The notes below the pieces were generated by a model. That model did no database searches. It had not been told where the DNA came from and saw nothing but the letters and a program-made list of their open reading frames with translations. The position numbers and the translations under genes are program-made. A stretch of 38,522 bases of DNA, taken from IMG/VR virus record IMGVR_UViG_3300048029_000152, positions 1 to 38,522 of that record; one strand, given 5' to 3'. Source of the DNA: a virus. Positions 10,731 to 38,522 of this stretch are shown here, piece by piece; position 1 is the stretch's first letter, and every line of letters starts with the position of its first letter.

Positions 10731-11233
10731 TGGCTGAACGCAAGAAAGCTCCACCGAGAGTAAAAACCGGTACCCACCCACAACGAGCACCTAAAAATAA
10801 CTATTTTGCTACTTTGATGTCTACACCAGAGGGTAGGGCAAAACGTGCAGAGTGGGCTGCTAGACCTCGCAAGAACCCTGGTAGACCTACAGGTGTTCCT
10901 GATGGACACCGCAAACACACAATAGAGCCTATACGTAAACAGGCGCGAGAAGAAGCAGAGAAGGTAGTAGAAGTAATGACCAAGAAGATACCAGTTGAGA
11001 CTGACTATGCAAAAGAAGCACTCACAACAGCTGTAGAAGTCATGCGCTCACCAGATAGCACCAGAGACCGGCTAACAGCAGCACGTCTTGTATTAGACTT
11101 TACCAAGCAGAAGCCAGCCTCGAAGTCAGAAATGGCTATCAGCCAGGCAGAGAACTTCCTGGAAGGATTGCTACAAGAGGAGCAGCAGCATGGACAAGAA
11201 ACTGAAAGAGATCCGCAAGCGACTATTAACTGA
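10730..11233 (+). CDS. terS: Terminase small subunit (167 aa)
   Basis: A basic N-terminal half (residues 1-70, with ARPRKNPGRPTGVPDGHRKHT) is followed by a helical region (EAEKVVEVMTKKIP, then ALTTAVEVMRSPDSTRDRLTAARLVLDFTKQKPASKSE). This second half resembles the small-terminase regions of many phages, where 'A...L..M.....S...R..AA..LLD....KP' is a common pattern. The subunit would recognise the packaging site and load the large terminase. Its ATG overlaps the preceding stop (TAATG) and its end overlaps the large-terminase start by 44 bp, the usual pairing. The role is supported mainly by position and this pattern. Confidence 0.75.
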   Translation: MAERKKAPPRVKTGTHPQRAPKNNYFATLMSTPEGRAKRAEWAARPRKNPGRPTGVPDGHRKHTIEPIRKQAREEAEKVVEVMTKKIPVETDYAKEALTTAVEVMRSPDSTRDRLTAARLVLDFTKQKPASKSEMAISQAENFLEGLLQEEQQHGQETERDPQATIN

Positions 11234-12761: not shown

Positions 12762-12764
12762 ACC

Positions 12765-14792
12765 ATGGAATATCAAGAATTAGATGAAGATGATATCTTA
12801 GTACTTGTAGAGGATAATATTAATCGTTCTATCGGTTACTATGACAGTCAGCTTTCCAAGGAGCGTGAAAAGGTACTCAAGTACTACCAGGCTGAAGAGC
12901 CTAAAGCGCAACACGATGGTAATTCTAAGTATATCTCTATGGATGTCTATGATGCTGTACAGTCTATGCAAGCAGCTCTTCTTGAATCTATGGCAGCTGG
13001 GCAGCGTATTGTTAAGTTTGCTCCACAGAATGCTGATGATGTCGTCATGTCTGAGATTGCTAGTGAGTACACTAACTACGTGATGTTCCGGCAAAATGAT
13101 TTCTTTGATGTTTGCAGCTCAGTGATTCACGATGGATTAACTGCAAGAGCTGGCATAGCTAAAGTATATTACGATGAGGCTACCGACTACCAGCTAGAAG
13201 AGTTTACAAATGTAACTGAAGAAGAGCTGGACATGCTTCTGGCACAAGATGAGGACATCGAGCTAGAAGAAAGTGACACAAATGAAGTTGGTCTTATATC
13301 TGGTAGCGTTAGCATACCGGTCAATAAAAGTCAGGTACGTGTAGAATCAATCCCACCGGAAAGCTTCATCATAGAGCCACAAGCAGTAAGCTTAGATTCA
13401 GTTAACTTTATGGCACACCGGGAGCGTAAGACAATATCTGAGCTGCGTGAGATGGGCTATGATGATGAGCTGATAGAAAAGATTGGTGATGACCACCAGG
13501 ATGTAGAGACAGAGACCGACCCGGAGGTTCTTGCCAGGCACTCAGAGATAGGTGCAGATAGAGGCTTTAACGCTAAAGGCTATCAGGACGTTGTACGCAG
13601 CGTAATGGTATATGAGTGCTATATAAAGTTAGACCCAGATGGAACCGGTGTAGCAAGCTTATATAAGGTCTGTAAGGCTGGTAATGCATTGCTAGATATG
13701 TATGTAGTGGACGATATACCGTTTATTGCATTTGTTCCGCTGCCTATACCTCATGCCTTCTTTGGACATAACTTTGCAGAGAAAGTAATACCCACACAAA
13801 ATGCTAGAACTGTTCTTACTCGCAGCATACTCGATCATGCTGTTATTACTAATAACCCCCGTTACATGGTCGTCAAAGGATCACTAAGCAACCCCCGGGA
13901 AATGATATCTAACAAAGTGGGCGGTCTCGTGAACGTCACCAGGGCTGATGGTATTGCACCGCTGCCCCAGGCAACTTTGAACCCTTTTGTATTCCAGACA
14001 CTCAATCTTTTACAGGAACAAGCAGAAGACACTACAGGCGTTTCTAGGCTGTCCAGAGGCATTGAGAAGGATGCTATAAGCAAGCAGAACAGTGCCGCTA
14101 TGGTTGAGCAGTTGGCATCTATGTCACAACAAAGACAAAAGATCATAGCCAGGCAATTTGCCAATCAGTTTGTCCGGCCTCTTTTCCACAAAGTCTATCA
14201 GCTATGTATTGAGAATGAGACAGAAGAAAAGATTGTACAGCTGGCAGGTAACTATGTGCCGGTTGACCCTAAAGCTTGGGAAGAGCGCAGAGACTGCATA
14301 GTAGAACTAAAGTTAGGCTATGGTGAGCAAGACCGTGACGCACAAAAGTACCTGCAGCTCCATGCGCTACTGGCTCAAGACCCAACAATAGCACCAATGT
14401 ACACCCCTGATAAAAAGTACCAAATGTATAAGACAATCATGGAGAAACAAGGCGTACTTAATGTTGACGATTACCTGACGAGACCTGACCAATTACAAGA
14501 GCCACAACCTGACCCAATGCAGCAAATGCAGCAGCAGATGGCTATGAAGCAATTAGAAATACAAGAGAGGCAAACAGCACTAGCAGAACAGAAAGCAGCA
14601 GCTGATGCCCAGGTAGCCCAGATGAAGCTCGAGCTGGATCAAATGAAAGCTCAAGCTCAACACGCCTTACAATCAGACAGCATGGATCTGAAAGAGGCAC
14701 AACTAGAACACAAGAAACGCATAGACGAAAGTGAACTTGAGATACTTAGGAACACTGAGGATAGGCGTGGAATTGTATCACCAACAGGATAG
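12765..14792 (+). CDS. Portal protein (675 aa)
   Basis: The protein follows large terminase by 3 bp and has the features of a P22-like portal. An acidic N-terminus precedes RSIGYYDSQLSKEREKVLKYYQAEEP, and a core contains VYDAVQSMQAALLESMAAGQ and HNFAEKVIPTQNARTVLTRSILDH. It ends in a long Gln/Met/Glu/Ala-rich coiled coil (residues about 575-660, QQMQQQMAMKQLEIQERQ and on), comparable to the barrel helix of P22 gp1 portals. Twelve copies would form the ring at the packaging vertex, binding terminase and later the adaptor. Length (675) is close to P22 gp1 (725). GGAGATGG precedes the ATG. I am confident of the role from order and architecture. Confidence 0.88.
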   Translation: MEYQELDEDDILVLVEDNINRSIGYYDSQLSKEREKVLKYYQAEEPKAQHDGNSKYISMDVYDAVQSMQAALLESMAAGQRIVKFAPQNADDVVMSEIASEYTNYVMFRQNDFFDVCSSVIHDGLTARAGIAKVYYDEATDYQLEEFTNVTEEELDMLLAQDEDIELEESDTNEVGLISGSVSIPVNKSQVRVESIPPESFIIEPQAVSLDSVNFMAHRERKTISELREMGYDDELIEKIGDDHQDVETETDPEVLARHSEIGADRGFNAKGYQDVVRSVMVYECYIKLDPDGTGVASLYKVCKAGNALLDMYVVDDIPFIAFVPLPIPHAFFGHNFAEKVIPTQNARTVLTRSILDHAVITNNPRYMVVKGSLSNPREMISNKVGGLVNVTRADGIAPLPQATLNPFVFQTLNLLQEQAEDTTGVSRLSRGIEKDAISKQNSAAMVEQLASMSQQRQKIIARQFANQFVRPLFHKVYQLCIENETEEKIVQLAGNYVPVDPKAWEERRDCIVELKLGYGEQDRDAQKYLQLHALLAQDPTIAPMYTPDKKYQMYKTIMEKQGVLNVDDYLTRPDQLQEPQPDPMQQMQQQMAMKQLEIQERQTALAEQKAAADAQVAQMKLELDQMKAQAQHALQSDSMDLKEAQLEHKKRIDESELEILRNTEDRRGIVSPTG

Positions 14793-18750: not shown

Positions 18751-21700
18751 ATGGCAAAAACAGGCTTCTTTCAAAACAGTGGCTCAACAGCCACCACAGA
18801 AAATGACATTGATACCCAAGTCACATTAGCCCAGACAGCAGCAACAAATGCACAGAACAGCGAAACTGCAGCAGAGACCGCACAAGTTGCATCAGAGAGT
18901 GCAAGAGACACTGCAACCATCAAGGCAACTGAAGCGTCCAACAGCGCATCTGCTGCCTCCACAAGTGCTTCTAATGCATCATCTGCAGTCTCAACTAAGT
19001 TTGGAGACATTCAGACAACCACAACTACAGGGGCAGCAGGTTCAAACGCAGCCGTAAGCTATACTGATTCTACAACCACATTTGCTTTTACAGTGCCTCA
19101 AGGGGCTACTGGAGCTACCGGAGCACAAGGCATCCAAGGGGCAACTGGTGCGACAGGAGCACAAGGCATCCAAGGGGCTACTGGAGCTACAGGTGCAGCA
19201 GGTACTGATGGAAGTGATGGTGATGCAGCAACCATTGCAGTAGGCTCAGTAACAACAGGGGCTGCAGGTTCTGCAGCAACAGTCACTAATGTAGGCTCAT
19301 CGTCTGCAGCGACTTTTAACTTTAGTATTCCTCGAGGTGACACTGGAGCTACTGGTGCACAAGGGAGTCAAGGTATCCAAGGCGCAACAGGGGCAACTGG
19401 AGCTACTGGTGCACAAGGCATCCAAGGTATCCAAGGTGTTGCAGGGGCTGATGGAAGTGATGGAAGCACAACCTTTATAGGTTTAACCGATACACCATCA
19501 TCATTTACAGCTAGTAAATTCTTAGCAGTAAATAGTGGCGGTACTGCTGTTGAATTAGTTGATGCGCCTAGTGGTGGTGGTGGTGGTAATGCTACAACCC
19601 TAGACAGCCTAGACAGCACCCAGTTTTTGCGTAGTGATGCGGCAGATACAAAGACCAGTGGAAATTTAAGATTTAACGATAGCGTGAAAGCAACATTTGG
19701 AACAACAGATGATGATTTACAAATATTCCACTCAGGTACAAACTCATTTATTCAAGATTTAGGAACAGGAAATCTTTATATTACGAGCAATGGTACGCAG
19801 ATTTTATTAAGAAACACAGCAGATAACGAAGATTTAGCAAAGTTTATTAATGGTGGCGCAGTAGAACTATACCACGATTCAAATCTCAAGGTTTCAACTA
19901 CTAGCACTGGAATGTCAGTCACAGGCACTTTACAAGCAGGGATATTTAAAACAGATGCAACCCCTAGTGCGAGTAGCATATTTAACACCTCTACTAATTT
20001 ATATCCGCTTTTGATTTCAAGAGGTGACGATGAAACCCAAGTTTTGCAAATCGGTGTAGATGATGCACAAGTAATTTTTAATTCCTTGCAAGATGAGCAA
20101 TATGGTGGATTTCTATTTACTTCTGAAGCTGACGGAGTTGGTACTAGAAACAGGCTTGTTATAGATAATGGTGATGGGGATATCTCTTTTTATAATAATA
20201 CTGGCGCAAACAGAGACTTTTACTGGGATGCGACTAATTCTAGACTAGGAATTAACAATACTTCTCCATCAACTGCGCTTGATGTAAATGGTGACCTCAC
20301 CCTTACCTCAACAGATGCTGGTGCTACAGAAAATCCTACTTTAGACCTTTACAGAAACAGTTCTTCACCAGCAGACCAAGACATTATTGGTCATATAAAC
20401 TTCAGCGGTGAGAATGATGCTGATGAAAAGATAGTCTATGGTGAGATACAAACTAGAATAAGAGATATGACTGATGGCACAGAAAATGGTGCGATAGAAA
20501 CCTACGTTGAAACAAATGGTAGTTTACAACTTTACTCAGTTCATCAAGATGGTGAATCTCAATTTTATAAAGATGTGCAAATAATAAGTAATGATGCTGG
20601 GTCTACAGAAAACCCAACTTTACAACTATACAGAAACAGTGCTAGTCCAGCCGTAAGTGACTTTGTTGGTACAATTATGTTTTCTGGTGAAAACGATGCT
20701 AACGAAAAACTACAGTATGCAGAAATACAAGCACAAATATCAGATGAGACAGATGGCACTGAGGATGGATCGTTATATCTACAAGTTAGAAACAATGGCT
20801 CTTTACTTTCTGCAGTAGCTATTTCAGGTGCTGCAAAAAGAGTAAATGTTGCCTCTGACTTTGATTTATTTTTACAAGAAGATGCAACAATTAGATTTGA
20901 GGGAGCTACGTCTAATGACTTTGAAACGACCCTCACTGTCACCGACCCCACAGCCGATAGAACCATTACCTTACCCGATGCCTCTGGCACTGTTCTTCTA
21001 AATACTGGCAATCAAAGCATTACTGGCGGTTTAACAACGACTGCGGCTGATGGGTCTGGGACACTTAATATTGTTAGTTCCGATAACAATACTAATTCGG
21101 GTAACAAGATTGCGTTTTTTGGTGCTGGTCGTACAGACACAGACGAAGAAATGGCTTTCATCAAACCACTTCTTACATCGAACAGTGGCGGGGCTGGTAA
21201 CGTTCAAGACGGACACCTTACTTTCGGCACATTTGGTAATGAACGTATGCGCATAGCATCAGGCGGCAATGTTGGCATTGGGACGACTTTGCCCGATGGA
21301 AATATGCATATTTTTAACAGTTCCGCTGGAACAGTTACAGCCCCAACCGATGCTAATGAATTAGTACTGGAATCTGCCGCGAATGTTGGTATGTCGTTTT
21401 TAACAGCTAATAGTAGTATTGCACGAATTAAATTTGGTGACCCCGATGCGACTAATTCTGGTGTTATTGCTTACAACCACTCTGACGATTCACTACGTTT
21501 TAACGCCAACGGTGCAGAACGTATGCGCATCAACAGTAGTGGCAATGTTGGCATCGGTACAACCGCACCTGCCGATAAGCTACACATTTATAAAGGTGCT
21601 TCTGGCAAGTCAAGTTTCTCTTCTAACACTGCTATTCTTATTGAAGATAATGTGGCAGCAGCACTTCAGTTTGCAACACCCAACACCGTTAATCAACAAA

Positions 21701-22191
21701 TCTTATTTTCTGACCCTGAAAGTAACACTTCAGGCAAAATTCAATATCAGCATAGCACTAATCTCATGACTTTTGATACAGACGGTGATGAAAGTATGCG
21801 GATAACTTCTGGTCATACAGTCGTAGGTAGGTCTGAAGGTGGCACTGCAAATCGCGTTAGTTTCACTCAAGGTTCTGCAAAGTCTTGGGTAACTTTTGAC
21901 ATGGATTCAAATAATGCAATCCTTGATGACTATAATGTTTCGAGTTTAACGGATAATGCAACAGGAAAAAACACCGTCAATATTGATAATAATATGAACA
22001 ACGTAAATTATGGAATAACATTTGGGTTTGAAGATAATTCATCAAATGTTAATGCCGTAAAGCTACAAGAAGGTCAAATTCCTACTACTGGCGCATTTAA
22101 GGTACAAGGTGGTGCTTTTCAAAACGGTAGTACAAATACTCAGTTTGATATAAATCGTACTTATTGTGTAACCCACGGTAGGCAAGCATGA
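18751..22191 (+). CDS. Collagen-like tail fibre protein (1146 aa)
   Basis: A long host-recognition fibre. Residues 1-90 hold a Thr/Ala/Ser-rich coiled coil ([30 protein letters not shown]). Residues about 113-235 contain collagen-type Gly-X-Y runs ([12 protein letters not shown] repeats), interrupted by two GAAGSxAxV segments. Residues about 275-1030 are beta-helix-like repeats of the '[13 protein letters not shown]', 'NVGIGTT.P...LHI' and 'ERMRI.S.GNVGIG' types common in marine phage fibres. An internal 93-residue duplication starts at residues 521 and 614. The end ([24 protein letters not shown] onward) is a separate tip domain. The ATG follows the adaptor stop by 2 bp with a weak ribosome binding site, so coupling is likely. 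The stop overlaps the next start (ATGATGG). Confidence 0.9.
19090..19456 (+). repeat. Collagen-like coding repeats within the fibre gene
   Basis: The DNA here repeats units such as GGAGCTACCGGAGCACAA, GGCATCCAAGG and GGGGCAACTGG with small changes, encoding GAT/GAQ/GIQ triplets in two blocks (about 19099-19206 and 19338-19456). These short, near-identical repeats can expand or contract by slippage or recombination, changing fibre length. Confidence 0.8.
20311..20820 (+). repeat. Tandem internal duplication of a 93-codon fibre segment
   Basis: Residues from 521 ([20 protein letters not shown]) and from 614 ([20 protein letters not shown]) are diverged copies, spaced 279 bp apart. Matching later segments are [17 protein letters not shown] versus [17 protein letters not shown] and [19 protein letters not shown] versus [19 protein letters not shown]. 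The divergence shows an old duplication that extended the fibre shaft. Confidence 0.75.
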
Positions 22192-24790: not shown

Positions 24791-24836
24791 ATATACCGCT
24801 TTACTCTGTGTCCGAATCGTGGTACTCTAGGTCACC

Positions 24837-24916
24837 ACTTGAAGGCGGCTGACTTCTAATCAGCAGGTTGGGGGTTCGAGTCCTCCCGGGATCACCATCT
24901 CCGACTGCCTTCAAGT
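24837..24916. repeat. 10-bp inverted repeat flanking the tRNA-like core (possible integrase sites)
   Basis: ACTTGAAGGC (24837-24846) and its exact reverse complement GCCTTCAAGT (24907-24916) bracket the tRNA-like segment. A third related sequence, ACTTGGAGA, lies at 24932-24940. Repeated short sites around an attachment core are what integrases with arm-type binding use. An RNA pairing role is the alternative. Confidence 0.55.
24848..24897 (+). other. attP core candidate: 3' portion of a tRNA-Arg(UCU) gene
   Basis: The 50 bp reproduce the 3' part of a tRNA: anticodon stem GCTGA/TCAGC (24848-24852, 24860-24864) with loop CTTCTAA (anticodon TCT, 24855-24857), variable loop AGGTT, T stem GGGGG/CCTCC (24870-24874, 24882-24886) with loop TTCGAGT, then a 7-base acceptor strand, discriminator A and an encoded CCA (24895-24897). 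The matching 5' acceptor strand and a D arm are missing: GGTACTC at 24821-24827 pairs only 5 of 7, two of them G-T. A truncated tRNA 3' end next to an integrase gene is the standard form of a phage attachment site, where integration restores the host tRNA. The target is inferred to be a host tRNA-Arg(UCU) gene. Confidence 0.75.
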
Positions 24917-24946
24917 TTCACATTGTAGAAAACTTGGAGAGTCAAA

Positions 24947-25201
24947 ATGGGTTACTTTAAAACAATACAAACTGAGCGTCCAACCTCAATCAGCTGGAAG
25001 AACTGCAAGCTATTCAGAGCTGACTTTTATGATGCACGTTATCCCCTCTGTGGCACCCACCTTGTGTGGGCTGCCGTGGGGCATAAATGGGTCAGGATAT
25101 TTAAGCCAATCCACAACACACGTTTTAAGATTCGCAGAAGCGAATGGGATGCAATTCGCACATGCGATATGGCAGCGGTTAATTCAAAGGGAGCAGCATA
25201 A
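24947..25201 (+). CDS. Unknown small protein upstream of integrase (84 aa)
   Basis: I do not recognise this gene. It encodes 84 residues rich in basic and aromatic amino acids: GYFKTIQTERPTSISWKNCKLFRADFYDARYPLCG, then VWAAVGHKWVRIFKPIHNTRFKIRRSEWDAIRT. There is no membrane segment. It has a good ribosome binding site (GGAGAG) and its stop overlaps the integrase ATG (TAATG), so the two are co-translated. Its position between attP and integrase is where small excision factors are often found, but no winged-helix or MerR-like motif is obvious, so that role is only a possibility. Confidence 0.6.
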   Translation: MGYFKTIQTERPTSISWKNCKLFRADFYDARYPLCGTHLVWAAVGHKWVRIFKPIHNTRFKIRRSEWDAIRTCDMAAVNSKGAA

Positions 25202-26037
25202 TGAATATCGAGACATTTTTAAATAAGTATGAAAACCGCATTTGGGAAGGCTGCACAGACAAGCACCGGATTGAGGCAGTCAATAGAGTACGTCAGCTCA
25301 TCAGCGTTAATGGCGACATGCCATACGAGCGTCTATCTGTAGACCATGTATACAAGCTGCTCGACAAGCTTAGACGTGCTAACTTTAGTGAGGCTACAGT
25401 TAATCGCTATATAGCTGCTATCTCTGCGTTCATGAAATACGCCAGGTCGATTGGTTTCAGCACCAAGCGATTTGACATCAAGACAAGCAAAGAAAAGTCA
25501 CGCATTAGATTCTTTAGCCCACAAGAGCTAGCTGGCATCGATGCATTCTCAAAGCTTAACTATGTGCCAGCTTGGTTTGGTCATATGTGTACTGTTGCCC
25601 GGTACACAGGGATGAGGCATGGCGAAGTGCTGCGCTTGTTCACTATGGATAAGGTAGAGCTTAACCATGATGAGGCAGATGGTACGCTGTGGATCACCCT
25701 TTTTGATACCAAGAATGGTGACGACAGACACATACCGGTAGCTGCTCCAGCTGCAATAAAATCTGCATTGAGCTTGCAAAACCACAAATACAATGAAAAG
25801 CTGTTCAGAAGGCTTTGGGATGAAATGCGTCACAAAGTTGGCGAAAGAGACCCACAGTTTCTGTTCCATGTGTTTAGACATTCAGCAGCAAGTACAATGG
25901 CGAATGAGTTAAATCTTAACGTGGTGATAGTGGGTCAGTGGTTAGGCCATAGAAGCATGGAGACTACCAAGAAATACATCCATGCGAAGAGAAACACACT
26001 AGGATCAGTAGCCCAACAGATGGCGAGGGCTGGTTAA
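25201..26037 (+). CDS. int: Tyrosine integrase (278 aa)
   Basis: A site-specific recombinase that would join attP to the bacterial attB. The core-binding (SAM-like) domain covers residues about 1-95. The catalytic domain contains TGMRHGE (Arg139), a beta-hairpin lysine in DTKNGDDRHIPV (Lys171), HVFRH (His223, Arg226), LGH (His250) and the nucleophile Tyr259 in TTKKYIHAK, which is the complete R-K-H-R-H-Y set. It is somewhat short (278 against about 350-400) and shows no separate N-terminal arm-binding domain, so arm-site binding, if any, would need a partner or the short N-terminus. GGGAG lies 8 bp before the ATG. It stands 300 bp downstream of the tRNA-like attP candidate, the usual arrangement. 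Confidence 0.92.
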   Translation: MNIETFLNKYENRIWEGCTDKHRIEAVNRVRQLISVNGDMPYERLSVDHVYKLLDKLRRANFSEATVNRYIAAISAFMKYARSIGFSTKRFDIKTSKEKSRIRFFSPQELAGIDAFSKLNYVPAWFGHMCTVARYTGMRHGEVLRLFTMDKVELNHDEADGTLWITLFDTKNGDDRHIPVAAPAAIKSALSLQNHKYNEKLFRRLWDEMRHKVGERDPQFLFHVFRHSAASTMANELNLNVVIVGQWLGHRSMETTKKYIHAKRNTLGSVAQQMARAG

Positions 26038-26622
26038 ATGGAAGGAATGAGCCAGATGAATAATATGAAAAAGGAAGAGATTTTAATTGGTATTCACGAT
26101 AGACAGCCAGAGGATTATGTTGCTGGTATGACTATGCCACCCGGCATACCTTTGCAGGGCAATTTAAATGCGTGGAACGATTACTGCGAGACGTTAGCTT
26201 ATATGCAATTAGGTGCCAATAATGATGAAAATTACGACAGCAAATATAAAAAATGTATCGGTTATTTTAAGTCAAGTTATCAAAAAATGAACATAATGCG
26301 TCTTCTGTATTTACAACAAAGTGTTCACAGTGAATACACGAAATCGTTTATTTGTAAGCGATTAGATTTAAGCAGAGGGTTTGTGCATAAAGTGGTTGAG
26401 GACGCTGTAGCAGAGGGCTGGGTAATATCTGATGCAAAGTCTGTAAGGCTTTCGCAGCATGGGATTGAGGCGTTTCGACACTATGCTATGAGATGGTGGC
26501 TAGCTAATGAAAACAGTGGATTATCCGGGCAGTATTTTAGAGTCTGGCATTCAAGAAATGCTGTATTCGTTAAAGACAAAATTCGTAATCAGTATTTACA
26601 AAACGTGGGCGGAGCGATTTGA
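26038..26622 (+). CDS. Winged-helix DNA-binding-type protein, candidate lysogeny regulator (194 aa)
   Basis: The gene begins right after the integrase stop; possible starts are ATG 26038, 26047 (after GGAAGGA), 26056 or 26065, so the first nine residues are uncertain. Residues about 86-150 read IMRLLYLQQSVHSEYTKSFICKRLDLSRGFVHKVVEDAVAEGWV, then VRLSQHGIEAFRHYAMRWW. This has the form of a winged helix-turn-helix like MarR-type proteins: a helix, a recognition helix after LDLS, and a wing. The rest is unfamiliar. It appears more AT-rich than its neighbours and is followed by a strong terminator, so it closes the integrase unit. A regulator of the lysis-lysogeny choice is a plausible inference from fold and place. 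Confidence 0.6.
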   Translation: MEGMSQMNNMKKEEILIGIHDRQPEDYVAGMTMPPGIPLQGNLNAWNDYCETLAYMQLGANNDENYDSKYKKCIGYFKSSYQKMNIMRLLYLQQSVHSEYTKSFICKRLDLSRGFVHKVVEDAVAEGWVISDAKSVRLSQHGIEAFRHYAMRWWLANENSGLSGQYFRVWHSRNAVFVKDKIRNQYLQNVGGAI

Positions 26623-26681: not shown

Positions 26682-26710
26682 TTATCAACAGGCTTGGAGC
26701 CAAATATACA
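26682..26710 (+). promoter_or_regulatory. Candidate sigma70-type promoter before the RNA polymerase gene
   Basis: TTATCA (26682-26687, four of six consensus bases for -35) and TATACA (26705-26710, four of six for -10) are separated by exactly 17 bp. The pair lies between the terminator and the phage promoter motif at 26718. The phage polymerase must first be made by host polymerase, so a host promoter is expected close to here. The match is moderate only. Confidence 0.45.
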
Positions 26711-26717
26711 CCAAAAT

Positions 26718-26743
26718 ACTTATGTTACCCCATGGAAACTACT
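26718..26743 (+). promoter_or_regulatory. Putative phage RNA polymerase promoter, copy 3 (extended)
   Basis: ACTTATGTTACCCCAT (26718-26733) is followed by GGAAACTACT; all 26 bases match copy 4 at 29251 except one (T/C at 26733). It lies 22 bp before the polymerase start codon. GGAAAC would be a suitable initial transcribed sequence for a T7-type enzyme. An inverted repeat ACTAC-TT-GTAGT follows (26738-26749). It suggests the polymerase gene is autoregulated. Confidence 0.7.
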
Positions 26744-26765
26744 TGTAGTCAAAAAGGGGGTACAT

Positions 26766-29249
26766 ATGAGTAAGCTACGTGCAACTACTTTGCATGAGTT
26801 ACAACGTGAGAGACAGATGATGTCTGACGGTCACGACAGATTCATGAAGAGACAATCAGAGACTAAGGATCTAACTTTAGACAAAGCACACTTTCAGTTA
26901 CTGGAAGCTGCATTACCTAAAGTGACTAAAGCAATACAAGAGAGGTTAGCAGCTGCTGCTCAACCTTGCAGCCATAGACCCTATAGTTGGCTACCGGACG
27001 TACAGAACATAGACCCGGAGTTACTAGCGTACTTGGCACTTGTGGTATGTATGAAGACTGTATCAGACTCGCAGACACGCACAAGCTGCTTGAGACTCAT
27101 AGGTGCTCGAATCGAAATGGAGAACTTTAGTCTAGACCTACAGAATCACGACAAGAAGCTACACAAAGAGCTTACAGACACTGTTCGACATACATACAGT
27201 AATGTAGACCTGCGTAATAAGGCAGTCATAGATGCTGCACGTAGGAAGGGCTTTGGTGTTACTCTGTGGGATGAAGAAAGAAAGATCAAAGCAGCTGCAC
27301 CTATCTTATCCTCTGTACTTGAAGCCAGCCAGATGTTTGAGGTATGGACTAGGCACTCTGAGGGTAAGACCAGGTACCTTATGGGAATTACAGAAGAAGC
27401 TAGCCATTTAATTGCCAACATAAACTATGACATCTCTTGGAATAATCCTGTATGTTCACCCATGGTCACTGAGCCATTAGCGTGGACTTGTGACAACCTC
27501 ACTCCGTATTTAGACCCAGCGATGACTGTAATTACACCATTGATCCGCCATGCATCTGGTAAGCAAAAGCGCATGATGTACAAAGCAATTCGTACAGGGC
27601 GTATGCAGCCAGCCTTGGATGCGCTCAATGCAATCCAAAGAACAAAGTACACCATTAACCGGTACGTACTCGAGGCAGCTAAGTGGGCTTGGAAAAACAA
27701 TAAGGCTGCAGGTGATACGTTCCCTTCTCAGGTAAAAATAGACTTACCCAAGCCACCAGCGAAGACTGCAGAACCAAAGAAGTTCATTGAGTGGCGTTCA
27801 GCTATGCAGCAAGCAACACTCATCAATCGTGAGGTAGATGCAGCACGTAGCTTAATAGCAACAGACTTTAAAACTGCAGAGGAGCTGGACAACTACGAGC
27901 ACTTCTTTTTACCTCAGTCCTTTGACTCCCGGGGTCGTATCTATCCCATTAGCCACTTTAGTACTCACAGAGCTGACTACGTTAAGTCTCTATTCCTACT
28001 TGCTGACCAAAAGAAGATAGGTGAGCGAGGGGCATACTGGATAGCTGTACAAGTAGCAAATACCGGAGACTTCAATAAGCTCAGTAAGGAATCATTTGAT
28101 GACCGTATTGCGTGGGTCATGGACAATGCAGAGCGTATTGCAGAAATAGGCAACGACTTCGAGGGCACCCACAGCGGCACTGAGCCTGGTGAAATCTATT
28201 GGTCAGATGCCGATAAGCCTTTCGCATTCCTGGCAGCATGCCGTGAGTTTTATGGATTCTGGGTTGAGGGTACAAACTATAAGTCTGGGCTGCCAATAAA
28301 CCTGGACGGAAGTAACTCAGGTATTCAACACTATTCAGCAGCTAGCCTTACAGAAACTGATGGAGCATTGGTTAACTTGGTGCCTTCAAAGAAACCCCAG
28401 GACATATACCAGACTGTAGCTGACCAGGTTATTAAGTATCTCGAGCAGCACATAGAAGAACACGCAAGTCACCACGAGTGGCTGGACTTTGGTATTACAC
28501 GCAAAATCGTAAAGCGCAATGTGATGACATATGGTTACAGCAGCAAGACTTTTGGGTTTAGTGAACAGCTGATGGAAGACTTGATGGAAGGTCTAACCAA
28601 GGACGTTAAGATAGGCCGGTTAGAAGAGCATCCTTTCAGCAATCCGCAAGCAGCTGCTAACGCATTAGCCAAAGTGAATTGGACTGTAATTAACCAGGTA
28701 ATTGTAGGGGCAAGCAATGGTATGCGGTATTGGCAAGCATTAGCAACAGCCGCTGCTAAAAATAATAAAACTATGAGCTGGTACACACCTCTAGGGTTCC
28801 CGGTTGATAACAGCTACTATAAGAACAAGTCTAAGCGATTACGTATTTATATGTATGACCGGGAGACAGATTCTCAAATAGCCAGTACCATGCGTTTGAA
28901 CAAGGATGACCCGGCATCAATAGACATACGTAAGTGTGCAGCTGCAATATCACCTAACATGATCCACAGTTTAGATAGTAGCCACTTGATGGATACAGTA
29001 CTCAGAAGCTTACAAGTGAATATCAGAAGCTTTGTGCTAATACATGATTCATTTGGTACGCTGCCAGCTGACACGGACAAGCTATTCAAGACAATCAGAG
29101 AGTCATTCATAGCACTGTACAAAGACAGGTGTGTCTATACAGAAATGAGTAAGCAGCAGCTTATTGATAATGACAATCTACCGGACATTCCAGAAAAGGG
29201 TAACTTAGTCCTCGAAGACATAATGGATAGCGATTATTGCTTCGCATAG
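26766..29249 (+). CDS. Single-subunit DNA-dependent RNA polymerase, T7 type (827 aa)
   Basis: The phage transcription enzyme. I choose ATG 26766 (MSKLRATTLHELQRE) because AAGGGGG lies just upstream and the ORF extension to 26694 would translate the promoter motif. The conserved T7 blocks are present: SFDSRGRIYP (motif before the palm), LDGSNSGIQHYSA with catalytic Asp514, KRNVMTYGYSSKTFGF with Lys583 and Tyr591 (equivalents of T7 Lys631 and Tyr639), and LIHDSFGT with catalytic Asp761 (T7 Asp812). The specificity loop region lies between GFPVDNSYY and AAISPNMIHSLDSSH. Length 827 compares with 883 in T7; the shortening is mainly N-terminal. The gene is bracketed by two nearly identical promoter-like motifs. 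Identification is secure. Confidence 0.96.
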   Translation: MSKLRATTLHELQRERQMMSDGHDRFMKRQSETKDLTLDKAHFQLLEAALPKVTKAIQERLAAAAQPCSHRPYSWLPDVQNIDPELLAYLALVVCMKTVSDSQTRTSCLRLIGARIEMENFSLDLQNHDKKLHKELTDTVRHTYSNVDLRNKAVIDAARRKGFGVTLWDEERKIKAAAPILSSVLEASQMFEVWTRHSEGKTRYLMGITEEASHLIANINYDISWNNPVCSPMVTEPLAWTCDNLTPYLDPAMTVITPLIRHASGKQKRMMYKAIRTGRMQPALDALNAIQRTKYTINRYVLEAAKWAWKNNKAAGDTFPSQVKIDLPKPPAKTAEPKKFIEWRSAMQQATLINREVDAARSLIATDFKTAEELDNYEHFFLPQSFDSRGRIYPISHFSTHRADYVKSLFLLADQKKIGERGAYWIAVQVANTGDFNKLSKESFDDRIAWVMDNAERIAEIGNDFEGTHSGTEPGEIYWSDADKPFAFLAACREFYGFWVEGTNYKSGLPINLDGSNSGIQHYSAASLTETDGALVNLVPSKKPQDIYQTVADQVIKYLEQHIEEHASHHEWLDFGITRKIVKRNVMTYGYSSKTFGFSEQLMEDLMEGLTKDVKIGRLEEHPFSNPQAAANALAKVNWTVINQVIVGASNGMRYWQALATAAAKNNKTMSWYTPLGFPVDNSYYKNKSKRLRIYMYDRETDSQIASTMRLNKDDPASIDIRKCAAAISPNMIHSLDSSHLMDTVLRSLQVNIRSFVLIHDSFGTLPADTDKLFKTIRESFIALYKDRCVYTEMSKQQLIDNDNLPDIPEKGNLVLEDIMDSDYCFA

Positions 29250-29250
29250 G

Positions 29251-29276
29251 ACTTATGTTACCCCACGGAAACTACT
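29251..29276 (+). promoter_or_regulatory. Putative phage RNA polymerase promoter, copy 4 (extended)
   Basis: ACTTATGTTACCCCAC followed by GGAAACTACT, starting one base after the RNA polymerase stop codon and 41 bp before the next ATG. It is nearly identical to copy 3 over 26 bp. It would drive the replication block from SSB to ribonucleotide reductase. Confidence 0.7.
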
Positions 29277-29316
29277 CACATTGCTAACCCTTCACTAATT
29301 GCAAAAGGAATAAGCA

Positions 29317-29532
29317 ATGCACCCAAGAGAAAGGGTGTTAGAGACCATCCGTTTACATGAAAACAAGGATTTGGCTCTGCCAGTAGACATACATGCCCAG
29401 GCTGTACGCTTGGGTATTATTACTGGTCATCACCCACAACAACAAACTATCCAACAAGGAGAATCTAAGGATGGCACAAAAGACAAGCTTTATAACCTTC
29501 AAAGGACACGCAGTATATCCCTGGTTGAATAA
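29317..29532 (+). CDS. Small protein upstream of SSB (71 aa)
   Basis: A 71-residue ORF with a good ribosome binding site (AAAGGAA) starting 41 bp after promoter copy 4. The first 38 residues (HPRERVLETIRLHENKDLALPVDIHAQAVRLGIITGHH) look like a folded helical segment. The remainder overlaps the SSB gene by 62 bp in another frame and looks low in structure, so the true functional part may be only the N-terminal half. Small genes at this position (between RNA polymerase and SSB) are common in T7-like phages, where several shut off host functions. Function here is unknown. Confidence 0.5.
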   Translation: MHPRERVLETIRLHENKDLALPVDIHAQAVRLGIITGHHPQQQTIQQGESKDGTKDKLYNLQRTRSISLVE

Positions 29533-30025
29533 ACCAGACACTGAGTATAATTCAGATGGTGTCTATAAAACTGGACTAAGAGTACCTGGCGACCAGATAC
29601 TACAGTTAATTAAGGATGTGGAAGAAGTTGCACAAAATGAATTTGGCAGCAAAGCCACCAAGGCACGTATGCCCTGGAAGATTGATCAGGACACTGGGGA
29701 ATATATCCTAAATGCTAAGTCCAAGTATCAACCTAAAGTCTATGATGCTGAAGGTCAGGTGATACCACCTGAGAAACTACCTCAGATCTGGGGTGGTTCA
29801 GTTTTAAGGCTGGGTGGTAACATCAATGCTTACAATGCTGCCGGTAATATGGGCGTATCTCTGCAGCTTAACAAAGTACAAATAGTTGAGCTTTCAGAAT
29901 TGACTCGTAATGATGACGGCACCGGGTTTGAGGCTGTAGATGGTGGTGGTTTTACACTCGCGTCTGTAGTCGATAATGACAATGTTAAAGAACAAACAGA
30001 AGAAGCCTTCGCAGGCGACTTCTAG
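29471..30025 (+). CDS. Single-stranded DNA-binding protein, T7 gp2.5-like (184 aa)
   Basis: Start chosen at ATG 29471 (AQKTSFITFKGHAVYPWLNKPDT), preceded by AAGGAG; the ORF extends upstream to 29393 without support. The protein has a beta-rich OB-like body, with YKTGLRVPGDQILQLIKDVE, TKARMPWKIDQDTGEYILNAKSKYQPKVYDAEG and IWGGSVLRLGGNINAYN. It ends in an acidic tail finishing with phenylalanine (EEAFAGDF). The acidic tail with C-terminal Phe is the hallmark of gp2.5, used to contact DNA polymerase and helicase. It would coat lagging-strand DNA and promote annealing. Length is close to gp2.5 (232), somewhat short. Endonuclease I overlaps its end by 50 bp. Confidence 0.88.
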   Translation: MAQKTSFITFKGHAVYPWLNKPDTEYNSDGVYKTGLRVPGDQILQLIKDVEEVAQNEFGSKATKARMPWKIDQDTGEYILNAKSKYQPKVYDAEGQVIPPEKLPQIWGGSVLRLGGNINAYNAAGNMGVSLQLNKVQIVELSELTRNDDGTGFEAVDGGGFTLASVVDNDNVKEQTEEAFAGDF

Positions 30026-30452
30026 AGGTATCAAACACGGATACCGTTCTGGCCTTGAGGTTAGCACTTCTAAGCACCTCGAATCTGAGGGTCTAGAGGT
30101 ACTCTACGAAACAGACCGTATCGCGTTTGTTTACCCAGCACGAAAAGCACACTATACCCCGGATTTCAAGCTGCCTAAACCAGGCGGCTTTTTTTATGTC
30201 GAGACTAAGGGCAGGTGGCTCACACAAGATAGGCACAAGCATTTGCTTATCAGAGAGCAGCTGCCCCACCTCGACATCCGGTTAGTGTTCAGCAATGCGA
30301 ATGCCAAGCTCTACAAGGGTTCTCCAACTACTTACGCAGCCTATTGTGAAAAGCATGGCATTCCATACGCACACAAAGTCATTCCACAAGAATGGCTAGA
30401 GGAGAGCAAATATGCCAACAGAATGGATAAGGGAGCAGCCCACCCCAGCTGA
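29976..30452 (+). CDS. Endonuclease I, Holliday junction resolvase, T7 gp3-like (158 aa)
   Basis: The sequence aligns by eye with T7 gp3 over most of its length: YRSGLE (Glu28), LYETDR (Glu45), YTPDF (Asp63) and VETKG (Glu76, Lys78) are the catalytic residues, and RHKHLLIREQLPHLDIRLVFSNANAKLYKGSPTTYAAYCEKHGI is almost colinear with the T7 protein. The enzyme resolves branched replication intermediates and degrades host DNA. Both ATG 29976 and ATG 29982 are possible starts, neither with a clear ribosome binding site, so coupling to SSB is likely. The stop overlaps the primase-helicase start by 41 bp. Confidence 0.95.
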   Translation: MTMLKNKQKKPSQATSRGIKHGYRSGLEVSTSKHLESEGLEVLYETDRIAFVYPARKAHYTPDFKLPKPGGFFYVETKGRWLTQDRHKHLLIREQLPHLDIRLVFSNANAKLYKGSPTTYAAYCEKHGIPYAHKVIPQEWLEESKYANRMDKGAAHPS

Positions 30453-32052
30453 GTTAGACGAAGGTAGATTCATACGTCACACCAATTGTAATGACTGTGG
30501 ATCGTCTGACGCAAAAGCGATTTATGACAATGGAGATAGAGGATATGCCACGTACTGTTTCAGCTGCACCAACTTCGAGACGGAACTATCTAGCGAAACA
30601 GCTGCAGCAAAACCAATTCCGGCAAAGGCGAGTCCAAAGCAAAAAGATTTACTCAAGGGAGAAGTCAGACAAATATCTTCTAGAGGACTGAGCCAGGACA
30701 CCTGCCAAAAGTACAAATATGAAGTAGCCATGCACAACGGTGAGCCGGTGCAGGTAGCAAACTATTACAACACAACAGGCCAGCTCGTAGCACAAAAGGT
30801 ACGCAGCAAAGACAAGAGCTTCAAGATACTAGGTGACGGTAAGAAGCTACCACTGTTTGGCAGCCAAAGGTGGGCATCAGGTGATCGCATAGTAATTACA
30901 GAAGGCGAAATAGACTGTCTCAGCATTGCACAAGTGATGCCTAAGACACCTATAGTAAGCCTACCACAAGGTGCCCAGGGAGCTGTAAAGGCTATTAAAG
31001 ATAACTGGGATTATGTGGCACAGTTTAAAGAAGTCATATTATGTTTTGATATGGATGACCCAGGGCGTGAGGCTGCCCAGGCTGTTAGTGAGCTGCTGCC
31101 GATTGGTACAGCTAAGATAGCACATTTACCACTTAAAGACGCTAACGAGTGTCTCATACAAGGAAAGCAAAAAGATATCGTCTCAGCGATCTTCGAGGCC
31201 AAGACTTATAGGCCGGATGGGATCGTAGCTGCAGCCGATATCAGACAGGCTCTCAGTGTGGTCGATGCAGCTTCTGCCATTAGCTACCCATACGACAGGC
31301 TAAATGAAATAACACTTGGTTTGCGTAAAGGTGAGCTGGTCACTGTCACTGCCGGTTCTGGTATCGGCAAGTCAACGCTGGTGCGTGAGCTGGCCTATCA
31401 CCTACACACAGGCGGCAACAAAGTAGGCATGATAATGCTTGAAGAAAGCAACAAGCGCACTGTTTTGGGTATGCTTGGTATTCACCTTAACAAAAACATT
31501 ACAGTAGACCGCAGCTTAGTAGAAGAAGCCGACTTATATAATGCCTTCGATGAGGTCTTTGCTAATACACCGCTGTATATGTATGACCACTTCGGTAGCA
31601 CAGAGGTCGAGACCATTCTGCAGCGCATCCGTTACATGGTTAAAGCGTTGGACGTTGAGTGGATCATACTAGACCACATCAGCATTCTTATATCTGGCTT
31701 GGCTGTTGCAGACGAAAGAAAAGCAATCGACATAGCCATGACAGCACTACGCACACTCATTAGTGAGCTGGGCATAGGCATGATTATGGTTAGCCATTTA
31801 AAACGACCAGAGGGCAATGCTGGTCATGAAGACGGTCAGAAGGTACGCCTAGGACAACTCCGGGGCAGCCATTCTATCGCACAGTTATCAGACATCTGTA
31901 TTGGACTACAGGTAGACCCGGATGAGCCAGACGGTGACTCGAGGCTGCTGCAGGTACTCAAGAACAGATTTACTGGTGAGACAGGCTTCGCTGGGAGAGT
32001 GAAGTACAGTCGTGACAGCGGCAGGCTTTTGTCTGTTGCAGACACTTTTTAA
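30412..32052 (+). CDS. DNA primase-helicase, T7 gp4-like (546 aa)
   Basis: A two-in-one replication protein. The zinc-binding primase module has CNDC (Cys26, Cys29) and CFSC (Cys49, Cys52). The TOPRIM/RNA polymerase domain has VITEGEIDCLS (Glu164) and CFDMDDPGREAA (Asp213, Asp215). A linker leads to the ring helicase domain with Walker A GSGIGKST (315-322), EESNKR (Glu344 region), Walker B WIILDHISIL (Asp421) and VSHLKRPEG. Length 546 against 566 in T7. It unwinds DNA and lays down primers for the phage polymerase. GAGGAGAG lies 6 bp before the ATG. Confidence 0.95.
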   Translation: MPTEWIREQPTPAELDEGRFIRHTNCNDCGSSDAKAIYDNGDRGYATYCFSCTNFETELSSETAAAKPIPAKASPKQKDLLKGEVRQISSRGLSQDTCQKYKYEVAMHNGEPVQVANYYNTTGQLVAQKVRSKDKSFKILGDGKKLPLFGSQRWASGDRIVITEGEIDCLSIAQVMPKTPIVSLPQGAQGAVKAIKDNWDYVAQFKEVILCFDMDDPGREAAQAVSELLPIGTAKIAHLPLKDANECLIQGKQKDIVSAIFEAKTYRPDGIVAAADIRQALSVVDAASAISYPYDRLNEITLGLRKGELVTVTAGSGIGKSTLVRELAYHLHTGGNKVGMIMLEESNKRTVLGMLGIHLNKNITVDRSLVEEADLYNAFDEVFANTPLYMYDHFGSTEVETILQRIRYMVKALDVEWIILDHISILISGLAVADERKAIDIAMTALRTLISELGIGMIMVSHLKRPEGNAGHEDGQKVRLGQLRGSHSIAQLSDICIGLQVDPDEPDGDSRLLQVLKNRFTGETGFAGRVKYSRDSGRLLSVADTF

Positions 32053-32077
32053 AAACATAAACCAATAGGAGAGCAGC

Positions 32078-32440
32078 ATGTTTCACAATGTTGAGCGTGA
32101 AACCTACCGGTATGTCCAAAGGAGAGAGGACAATAACAAAGGCAGGCAGCGCAAATACCTAGAGCTAATGTGTGAGTACAACCAGCTAGAACCTCACGAG
32201 GCACACGACATCAGAGAACTAGCAACCCATGAGAAAGCACCAAATGATGCGGTGTTTAGGACAGGGGGCAATATTAACGGCAAATGGTCACCTGGTCGGT
32301 GGATTTGCATGTGGGAGCTATCCCCTGTCAACGACTTTGTAATTTGGTCACACAAAAGAATAATCGAGGAGAGCAAAGATTATGAACAACGTAAATCTAT
32401 TAGAGCAAAACAAGGAACGAGAAAACTGGCAGCAATCTAA
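32078..32440 (+). CDS. Unknown protein between helicase and DNA polymerase (120 aa)
   Basis: I do not recognise this gene. It encodes 120 residues, basic and without membrane segments: HNVERETYRYVQRREDNNKGRQRKYLELMCEYNQLEP, then ELATHEKAPNDAVFRTGG, a Trp-containing block KWSPGRWICMWELSPVNDFVIWSHKRI and a Lys/Arg-rich end. AGGAGA lies before the ATG. It overlaps the DNA polymerase start by 59 bp. Position in the replication operon suggests a replication or host-takeover accessory. Confidence 0.6.
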   Translation: MFHNVERETYRYVQRREDNNKGRQRKYLELMCEYNQLEPHEAHDIRELATHEKAPNDAVFRTGGNINGKWSPGRWICMWELSPVNDFVIWSHKRIIEESKDYEQRKSIRAKQGTRKLAAI

Positions 32441-34208
32441 TTTATTCCAGCGTATCGTATTCGACATAGAAACTAACGGTTTAGATCCAGACGTTATCCA
32501 TTGCATGGTCATAAAGTGTCTGGACAGCCATAGAATTAAGAAATTTACACAAGAAAACATGCAGGTAGGTTTGGATTACTTATCTGCAGCTAGAAATATT
32601 ATTGGGCACAACATAATAGCCTACGATATTCCCAGTCTCCAAAAAGTCTACCCGGGCTTCCATGTGGAGCCATCAGCAACCGTGGACACGCTAGTGCTCT
32701 CCCGGCTAATCCATGCTGACCTGATGCAAGAAGATTATGAGCAGCGATTCAGTAGCAGTTTGAACCTCCCAAAAAAGCTAATGGGTTCGCACTCGCTTGG
32801 TGCCTGGGGCATCAGGTTAAATCTTCATAAGGGTGACTATGATGGGGGCTGGGATACTTTCAGCCAAGAAATGTTAGATTATTGTGAGCAAGATGTATTC
32901 GTAAACGAGGCGTTGTACGCTAAGTTTAATGGTAATGAGAAGAATAACTTTTATCATGCGTCTCGTTCCTTTGCTAACAAGCTTGCATGGGTTTGCAATA
33001 GAGTAGGTAAGTTTGGTTGGTATTTTGATAAACCAGCTTCTTACAAGCTATATGGTGAGCTTGCTTACGAGCGATCAGAACTAGAGATTGAGCTGCATAG
33101 TTTATTTCCTAACTGGAATGTCGAGGAAATATTTATACCCAAAGTAAACAACAGCAAGCTGGGTTACGTGAAGGGTGAGCCTTTTATTAAAGTCAAAGAG
33201 GTACAGTTTAATCCTAACAGTAGAAGACACATCGAGCACTGCCTTCGATCTAAGTATGATTGGCAGCCTAAGTTATTAACGGCTGGTGGTCATGCACAGA
33301 TAGATGAATCTGTCCTGGACGAGCTACCATATCCAGAAGCAAAAAAGCTAGCTAAATTCTTTATGCTGCAGAAAAGACTTGGTCAGCTGGCTGAGGGTAA
33401 GCAAGCTTGGATCAATCTCGTTGGTGCTGATAGCAAGCTGCATCACACAATTATACCCCAAGGTACTGTAACGCACAGAGCTGCACATCGTAGCCCCAAC
33501 TTAGCCCAGGTACCTGCTACCCGGCTGCCATGGGGCAAGAAATGCCGAAAGTTGTTTACTGTACGTGATGGTTATAGGTTGCTAGGTGCCGATTTATCTG
33601 GGTTAGAACTTCGTTGCCTAGCACACTATTTGGATGACCCAGAGTACACTCAAGAGCTGCTGGAAGGCGATATACATACCGCCAACATGAAGGCTGCAGG
33701 TCTTAAAACTAGAGACCAGGCAAAGACCTTTATATATGCGTTTCTGTATGGAGCTGGGGCTGCAAAGATTGGTGAAGTTGCTGATGGTGGAGCTGCAGAA
33801 GGTAAGCAGCTGCTCGATAGGTTCAATGAGAACATGCCAGGCATTAGACGGTTACGTAAAGCAGTAGAAGAGGCTGCAGAGCGTGGCTTTTTGTATGGGC
33901 TAGATGGCAGGCAGATAAAGATAAGAGCCAAGCACAAAGCCCTCAACACGCTTTTACAAGGGGCTGGAGCCACTATCTGTGGCACCTGGTTAATCAAGAT
34001 ACAAGAAGAGTTAGACAATCAGCAGCTGGACGCAAACATCTGTGCCTGGGTGCACGATGAAGTGCAGATAGAGGTCAGAGAAAAGGATATAGAACATGTC
34101 GGTAATATCGTTCGAGAATGCGCGAAAGCAGCTGGAGAATCGTGGCTCATTAAAATCCCAATCGCTGCAGAATACACAAGCGGAAAAACCTGGGCAGACA
34201 CTCATTGA
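32382..34208 (+). CDS. DNA polymerase, family A with 3'-5' exonuclease, T7 type (608 aa)
   Basis: The replicative polymerase. The exonuclease domain shows VFDIETNGL (Asp28, Glu30), IIGHNIIAYDIPSL and YCEQDVFVNEALY. The polymerase domain shows AHRSPNLAQVPA, motif A LGADLSGLELRCLA (Asp404), motif B RDQAKTFIYAFLYGAG and motif C CAWVHDEVQIEV (Asp559). Length 608 against 704 in T7; the difference is in the central region, where the T7 thioredoxin-binding loop sits, so processivity may not use thioredoxin in the same way. Start at 32382 has AGGAGAGC nearby and leaves about 24 residues before the exonuclease domain. Confidence 0.96.
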   Translation: MNNVNLLEQNKERENWQQSNLFQRIVFDIETNGLDPDVIHCMVIKCLDSHRIKKFTQENMQVGLDYLSAARNIIGHNIIAYDIPSLQKVYPGFHVEPSATVDTLVLSRLIHADLMQEDYEQRFSSSLNLPKKLMGSHSLGAWGIRLNLHKGDYDGGWDTFSQEMLDYCEQDVFVNEALYAKFNGNEKNNFYHASRSFANKLAWVCNRVGKFGWYFDKPASYKLYGELAYERSELEIELHSLFPNWNVEEIFIPKVNNSKLGYVKGEPFIKVKEVQFNPNSRRHIEHCLRSKYDWQPKLLTAGGHAQIDESVLDELPYPEAKKLAKFFMLQKRLGQLAEGKQAWINLVGADSKLHHTIIPQGTVTHRAAHRSPNLAQVPATRLPWGKKCRKLFTVRDGYRLLGADLSGLELRCLAHYLDDPEYTQELLEGDIHTANMKAAGLKTRDQAKTFIYAFLYGAGAAKIGEVADGGAAEGKQLLDRFNENMPGIRRLRKAVEEAAERGFLYGLDGRQIKIRAKHKALNTLLQGAGATICGTWLIKIQEELDNQQLDANICAWVHDEVQIEVREKDIEHVGNIVRECAKAAGESWLIKIPIAAEYTSGKTWADTH

Positions 34209-38015: not shown

Positions 38016-38522
38016 ATGCCACAAAAGACACAAAAGACACAAAAGACACCCATAGACCAAAAGACCCCCGGGGTAGGACAGTACGTATCCCTAATCCAAC
38101 AGTTATCCAGAGACCCGGCAGCTGACGAGTGTTACACCCCCAGTGCCCAGGTACTCCCACTGCTCCAGTACCTAGACCCAGGTCTCACGTACTATGAGGC
38201 CACTAGCGGTATCAGCAGCCAGCTAATAGACGGCTTTAGATCCAATGGCTATCAAATGGTTGGCAGTGGTTCCAAAGATTTCTTTGATTGTACAGCAGCT
38301 GATGTGTATGACGGCATAGTGACCAATCCACCGTACTCACTTAAAGACGACTTCCTGGCACATTGTTATGCATTGGGTAAACCATTTGCACTGTTTCTGC
38401 CGGTCGCTAGTTTCCAGGGTTCCAGGAGAGGCAGTATGTTCATGAAGCATGGCATATCGGCTCTTGTGTACAACAACAGGGTAGACTTTACCGGCAAGGG
38501 GTCTCCACCATTTGGCAACGCC
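38016..38522 (+). CDS. Phage DNA adenine methyltransferase, 5' part (continues at 1-260)
   Basis: The start at ATG 38016 opens with an unusual Lys-Thr-Gln repeat (PQKTQKTQKTPIDQKTPG), followed by the domain: DECYTPSAQVLPLLQYLDPGLTYYEATSGISSQLIDGF and VYDGIVTNPPYSLKDDFLAHC. NPPY (residues 104-107) is the catalytic motif IV of N6-adenine and related amino-methyltransferases. The SAM-binding motif I is weak: YYEATSGIS stands where EP(T/S)AGxG is usual, so activity is likely but not certain. Codons here run on into base 1 across the circular junction, giving 191 residues in all. No good Shine-Dalgarno sequence is seen near the ATG. It is the first gene after the repeat-rich region. Confidence 0.8.
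   Translation, partial: MPQKTQKTQKTPIDQKTPGVGQYVSLIQQLSRDPAADECYTPSAQVLPLLQYLDPGLTYYEATSGISSQLIDGFRSNGYQMVGSGSKDFFDCTAADVYDGIVTNPPYSLKDDFLAHCYALGKPFALFLPVASFQGSRRGSMFMKHGISALVYNNRVDFTGKGSPPFGNA
38332..38522. repeat. Terminal redundancy, right copy (matches 1-191)
   Basis: Right-hand copy of the 191-bp overlap, with G at 38459 and 38468 where the left copy has T. Both changes are silent in the methyltransferase frame. Confidence 0.9.

Follow-up and report, generated by a model that had tools for sequence, protein, structure and literature searches.

Positions 24848-24897 of the window, which is the whole 38,522-bp stretch of DNA analysed here (IMG/VR virus record IMGVR_UViG_3300048029_000152), are almost certainly the core of the phage attachment site (attP) of a temperate podovirus that carries a T7-type RNA polymerase, infects SAR116-type alphaproteobacteria and uses its integrase to recombine with the host tRNA-Arg(UCU) gene. 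Attachment sites within tRNA genes are of a known kind, and the phage group has already been recognised as temperate on SAR116. The new elements are a split within one family, between phages that rebuild the host tRNA and phages that replace it with a recoded one, and a set of complementary segments that spans attP. Integration by the window phage itself, the exact bases of the crossover and the host species are what we infer.

The attP core lies on the plus strand and corresponds to the 3' part of a tRNA-Arg(UCU), from the anticodon arm to CCA. It comprises the anticodon stem GCTGA/TCAGC with the loop CTTCTAA (24848-24864), the variable loop AGGTT (24865-24869), the T arm GGGGG-TTCGAGT-CCTCC (24870-24886), the 3' acceptor strand CGGGATC (24887-24893), the discriminator A (24894) and CCA (24895-24897). 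The initial annotation had described just such a piece lacking its 5' half, and the sequence agrees, as ARAGORN detected no intact tRNA in the whole window. The Rfam tRNA model scored the piece at 29.8 bits against a threshold of 29 only by forcing non-tRNA bases into the 5' half. When the host 5' half and the window 3' half were joined in silico, ARAGORN called tRNA-Arg(tct) at the junction, and it called no tRNA at the opposite junction. The 50-base tRNA match is far beyond chance, since an exact copy lies within a true tRNA-Arg(TCT) and the tRNA-Arg(UCU) pieces of relatives occupy the same map position.

The record is probably a complete genome, because a 191-bp direct repeat, 99% identical, is present at both termini (1-191 and 38332-38522). 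It encodes a single-subunit T7-type RNA polymerase (PF00940) and a DNA polymerase of PHROG 17, the T7-type replication genes by which an Autographiviridae-like podovirus is recognised. The genome is mosaic, with T7-type polymerases at 26694-34208 versus non-T7-like terminase matches at 11190-14792. By best phage match rather than phylogeny, the terminase is closest to that of Roseobacter phage CRP-7 (38%), followed by Vibrio and Stx-converting phages and not by T7 types. A 1146-aa protein with collagen-like G-A-T-G-A-Q repeats, encoded at 18751-22191, is probably a tail fibre.

As a copy of the segment in a bacterial tRNA-Arg(TCT) gene had been proposed as a check on the attP reading, we searched 84,980 GTDB genomes and recovered all 50 bases in one, HS5SWF_bin.12, where they make up the 3' portion of an intact tRNA-Arg(TCT). 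This genome is an alphaproteobacterial MAG of the SAR116 order. Within the host order, 36 of the 136 genomes carry the site at three or fewer mismatches, mostly in one copy per genome, and five genomes differ from the 50-mer at the discriminator base only. The order also includes G079, a single contig of 2,753,527 bp in which a related prophage occupies about 385.5-424.5 kb. According to PMC5332604, Ca. Puniceispirillum marinum IMCC1322 has a collinear prophage at 385-425 kb, and from the agreement of coordinates and genes with that account we infer that G079 is IMCC1322. With G079 taken as IMCC1322, the host order is the SAR116 order, and because the exact tRNA-Arg(TCT) sits in the order of IMCC1322, the phage host would be SAR116-like. 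The phage thus probably inserts into SAR116 bacteria via the tRNA-Arg site. HS5SWF_bin.12 itself gave no RNA polymerase match and only a weak integrase match, and no prophage of the window phage was found, which counts against the attP reading.

Prophage junctions of relatives fall at the same place. Cutting the window at the tRNA piece, which separates the lysis genes from int, makes it gene-for-gene collinear with the IMCC1322 prophage (terminase 76%, portal 63%, tail protein 66%, DNA polymerase 49% and integrase 29%). This prophage ends in a 50-bp direct repeat within tRNA-Lys(TTT) that stops at the anticodon stem; the att repeats lie at G079:C1 384647-384696 and 424515-424564. There the phage provides bases upstream of tRNA-Lys together with its 5' half, and the intact tRNA stands at the lysis end, so that the att polarity is opposite to that of the window with its 3' half of tRNA-Arg(UCU). 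That the closest full prophage uses another tRNA and the other half also counts against the attP reading. A second genome of the SAR116 order, G131, carries an intact tRNA-Arg(UCU) preceded by tRNA-Pro; about 250 nt downstream lies an integrase of the window's family, cut by the contig end. The integrase-side junction is predicted to look like this. Sites of the same kind were also found in related phages within tRNA-Met, tRNA-Cys and tRNA-Ser. An RNA polymerase search of the 136 host-order genomes returned one prophage, that of IMCC1322. In another SAR116-order genome, a region of G077:C13 at about 31400-39300 (L146) with a broken integrase and remnants of the small terminase and virion genes is likely a decayed prophage of the window's group.

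These junctions also bear on whether the tRNA piece could be a relic, or a decoy RNA, that plays no role in integration. Such a view would fit a partial tRNA in a phage for which no prophage is known, but the piece is kept across deep divergence, always at the point where the prophage opens and upstream of int, different relatives use different tRNAs and G131 offers a real junction, all of which makes the view very improbable. The attP reading of the initial annotation is therefore supported by the exact tRNA match, the in silico rebuild and the homologous prophage junctions in relatives.

The attP core is followed on the same strand by an early operon. As had been noted from the sequence, a complete tyrosine integrase begins about 300 bp on (303 bp as measured) and has its R-K-H-R-H-Y residues. 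This 278-aa protein (25201-26037) matches PF00589 (E 1.3e-13), PF02899 and the PHROG 1 integrase, and residues R139, K171, H223, R226, H250 and Y259 are invariant in an alignment of eight relatives. It begins directly at the core-binding domain, and neither Pfam nor the alignment revealed an obvious N-terminal arm-binding domain. The first gene of the operon is an 84-aa ORF (24947-25201) that is conserved in all relatives having the region; a small beta-rich fold is predicted for its product, with no significant PDB match. Downstream of int lies a 194-aa ORF (26038-26622), whose product, aligned with those of relatives, appears helix-turn-helix-like by eye and had no Pfam or PHROG match, and then the T7-type single-subunit RNA polymerase gene (26694-29249; PF00940, E 5e-87). 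Upstream of the core, a position-weight scan predicted an early promoter at 24800-24828 on the plus strand, composed of TTTACT (24800-24805), a 17-nt spacer and TACTCT (24823-24828). The scan placed a promoter-like pair at the homologous position in most relatives, mostly with a 17-nt spacer. The predicted promoter is weak in the window and stronger in relatives, and a consensus promoter scanner made no call at 24800-24828 in the window.

In the proposed mechanism the integrase would recombine attP with the host tRNA-Arg(UCU) gene in the anticodon-arm region that both contain. Because attP spans the anticodon arm to CCA, the integrase-side junction would regain a complete tRNA-Arg(UCU), made of the host 5' half and the phage 3' half, and the host would therefore keep its essential tRNA. 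Against a stable lysogen stands the report that T7-like cyanophages integrate without forming stable lysogens (PMC8776855).

To delineate the family, we searched the viral contigs (viral_contigs). The exact 50-mer, or the window integrase alone, gave no matches there; the family was recovered by the 27-mer core and by a profile of 8 integrases. The 27-base core scan returned 21 viral stretches; int, the 84-aa ORF or both follow in nearly all of them. Two classes of attP were distinguished. Class i comprises the window, L028-L030, L034, L035, L037-L039, L043, L044 and L047; here tRNA identity extends as far as CCA, and in all of them tRNA-Arg(UCU) was obtained in silico when the phage side was fused to the host 5' half. 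L075, also of class i, has its own tRNA-Arg variant that likewise extends to CCA. In class ii (L024/L025/L027, L031, L033, L041, L042, L045 and L046) the identity ends at the T stem after 28-33 nt and a proper tRNA is not rebuilt: ARAGORN called no tRNA at either in silico junction of L024, L041 and L045, and in L031/L033 it called at one junction a degenerate 76-nt tRNA in a sequence without CCA. Each class ii genome of at least 25 kb (L024, L031, L033, L041 and L045) encodes one intact tRNA, and in 5/5 it is tRNA-Arg(UCU). No intact tRNA was present in the class i records searched, including those of relatives with att in other tRNAs. As the phage tRNA-Arg occupies two different genomic places among class ii phages and the two classes interleave on the integrase tree, the attP class has changed more than once. 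A 20-mer scan for further class ii phages returned almost only intact tRNAs, on contigs without a related integrase or RNA polymerase.

The class ii tRNAs were compared with a host-type (SAR116-type) reference, the intact tRNA-Arg(UCU) of contig L040. This contig was set aside as a phage, having an intact tRNA-Arg and no related phage genes. The anticodon stem accounts for 4/4, 6/8, 4/6, 4/11 and 4/11 of the differences between the five phage tRNAs and the reference, its pairing is kept in all five, and the outermost pair G28-C44 has become A-U in 5/5. G28-C44 marks the boundary of the att core, so the change is most simply read as one that would protect the spare tRNA from the integrase of the same phage. 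Two features mark tRNA-dependent lysogeny, a tRNA that is not rebuilt and an intact tRNA of the same isotype encoded by the phage; the class ii sisters have both and the window neither, as its tRNA is rebuilt and it has no tRNA gene. The class ii pattern, read from sequence, fits tRNA-dependent lysogeny (PMC10865867), here in marine podoviruses.

The phage tRNA-Arg might instead serve the AGA/AGG codons of the phage or counter a tRNA-cutting defence, with no relation to attP. In line with this, AGA accounts for about 0.1 of Arg codons in most of the other class i phages and for 0.19-0.30 in class ii; yet in the window and L075, which are class i and lack a tRNA, its share equals or exceeds that of class ii. 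Its isotype equals that of the att tRNA in every one of the five, intact tRNAs are confined to class ii among the records searched, and the changes concentrate in the anticodon stem with pairing kept, which is what escape from the phage's own integrase would call for, so that a codon or defence role unconnected with attP appears improbable. Codon demand as the reason for the class ii tRNAs was set aside as unsupported, AGA use in the window exceeding that of any class ii phage measured. The concept of tRNA replacement is not new, as a similar substitution is mentioned in a Sinorhizobium study (PMC11476347; see also PMC12429752); among the papers searched, none described it for marine podoviruses that carry T7-type polymerases. 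Two T7-like temperate phages carry annotated intact tRNA-Leu genes on the minus strand, the Pseudomonas phage LUZ100 (L149; 2658-2743, right beside int) and the Rhizobium phage Pasto (L152; 8491-8573), both of them possible additional examples of tRNA replacement.

The tRNA piece of the window is bracketed by a perfect 10-bp inverted repeat on the plus strand, the brackets of relatives being different in sequence. The left arm, segment L (ACTTGAAGGC, 24837-24846), lies where the early RNA is predicted to start. The right arm, segment R (GCCTTCAAGT, 24907-24916), is also complementary to the Shine-Dalgarno region of the 84-aa ORF, where segment S (AAACTTGGAG, 24930-24939, plus strand) includes the motif GGAG and pairs with 24909-24918; the two form a 90% complementary repeat that folds into a hairpin in the modelled leader without L. 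For comparison across lineages the segments were defined without using complementarity: L as the bases between the predicted transcription start and the anticodon stem (in IMCC1322, the 110 nt before the att repeat), R as those between the tRNA piece and the Shine-Dalgarno site and S as those around that site. The L:R duplex was better than that of shuffled L (p<=0.03) in 18/20 lineages, the exceptions being L028 and L042, and complementarity was enriched in L:R (Fisher 7e-22) and in R:S (Fisher 2e-12), combined values that overstate independence because the lineages are related. A lineage's own R was the best partner for its own L in 16/20, and a control segment about 200 nt upstream gave no complementarity signal (combined p 0.58). 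Complementarity across attP is shown by these sequence comparisons; what we say of its role is hypothesis. Stretches of HTVC019P, HTVC109P and AP013542 were scanned and held no comparable tRNA 3' fragment; these three, LUZ100 and Pasto, taken as outside comparisons for the leader, have a gene order unlike that of the window.

One reading, which would add to the attP reading and which we advance tentatively, is that attP lies inside the leader RNA of the early operon and acts as an integration sensor or RNA switch. In free phage DNA the early RNA would start at L, and L:R pairing across attP would leave S open and translation on. Should the crossover fall in the anticodon arm, between L and R, integration must separate the two. 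In the prophage the early promoter and L would lie at the far (lysis) end, with int and the RNA polymerase gene just downstream of the rebuilt tRNA; R would then pair with S, and translation of the 84-aa ORF, int and the RNA polymerase would fall. Besides the L:R and R:S complementarity and the silent upstream control, this reading is favoured by the position of the L match (aligned symmetrically with 130 upstream bases, it begins no more than 8 nt from the predicted transcription start in 12/19, against 2.8 expected) and by IMCC1322, in which L and R are at opposite prophage ends. In modelled ensembles, opening of the Shine-Dalgarno site increased by at least 0.05 with L in 20/30 leaders. Several observations speak against it: seven leaders barely changed, and in three close relatives (L042, L045 and L046) the site was predicted to be closed by L; the promoters are predictions, and the window's is weak; L:R has no excess of G-U over A-C mispairs (5 versus 4), the RNA bias in R:S being suggestive only; and single-sequence fold z-scores of the leaders are modest. 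A literature search returned nothing relevant on an attP leader that sequesters a Shine-Dalgarno site.

Alternatively, L, R and S may be DNA sites around attP for the integrase, an excisionase or a repressor, which we consider plausible while giving it somewhat less than even chances. Inverted copies of one protein-binding motif would yield complementarity that changes together with the protein. Int-binding repeats commonly flank attP cores, as described for mycobacteriophages (PMC10865867), L:R is almost purely Watson-Crick and, in the Met/Cys groups, an inverted TCCGTTG/CATCGGA-like motif resembling a protein site overlaps the promoter spacer, which also weighs against the RNA switch. Seen in L090, L092, L078 and L118 about 45-65 nt upstream of the anticodon stem, this motif spans the promoter spacer and recurs beyond attP, and is possibly an operator or an integrase site. 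DNA sites would be less expected for integrases without an obvious arm-binding domain, and they leave unexplained why L is at the predicted transcription start and why R matches the Shine-Dalgarno strand. DNA sites and an RNA switch are about equally likely.

The window shares a collinear genome, an integrase and a SAR116 host with the temperate SAR116 phages (OBV_N00085 group and IMCC1322 prophage), whose collinearity and integrases are reported in PMC5332604. A tRNA piece beside a tyrosine integrase, and int near a T7-type RNA polymerase gene, are common to the window, marine phages (PMC3861242), T7-like cyanophages (PMC8776855) and LUZ100 (PMC10134795), and exact attP-tRNA matches have been used in this body of work to assign hosts of marine phages, including SAR116. 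The cyanophages, a pelagiphage-like genome and LUZ100 use tRNA-Leu, whereas the window uses tRNA-Arg(UCU); the cyanophage attP lies downstream of int and that of the window upstream; and LUZ100 and pelagiphages, unlike the window, have a MarR gene upstream of int. From the tRNA-dependent lysogeny of Guerrero-Bustamante and Hatfull (PMC10865867) the window differs in rebuilding its tRNA. Class ii phages differ from that system in a core of 28-33 nt versus about 10 bp, in an integrase without an obvious arm-binding domain, in their SAR116-like hosts and in the recoded anticodon stem of the replacement tRNA. In the integration-dependent immunity of mycobacteriophage BPs (PMC4557955) the position of attP makes expression depend on integration, and the same is proposed here; the BPs attP is inside the repressor gene, while that of the window would be embedded in a leader RNA that precedes int and the RNA polymerase gene.

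The attP match assigns a host group, SAR116, to an uncultured phage. The family is a natural experiment in which some members rebuild the tRNA and others break it and bring a recoded spare, and it bears on the spread of tRNA-dependent lysogeny outside actinobacteriophages and its relation to the canonical mode, both left open in PMC10865867. Work on cyanophages (PMC8776855) and LUZ100 (PMC10134795) has raised the question of how prophages of this kind are kept quiet. If true, sensing by the leader would mean that a DNA rearrangement silences the prophage with no need of a classical repressor, and would suggest how T7-type phages with no recognised repressor may stay quiet as prophages.
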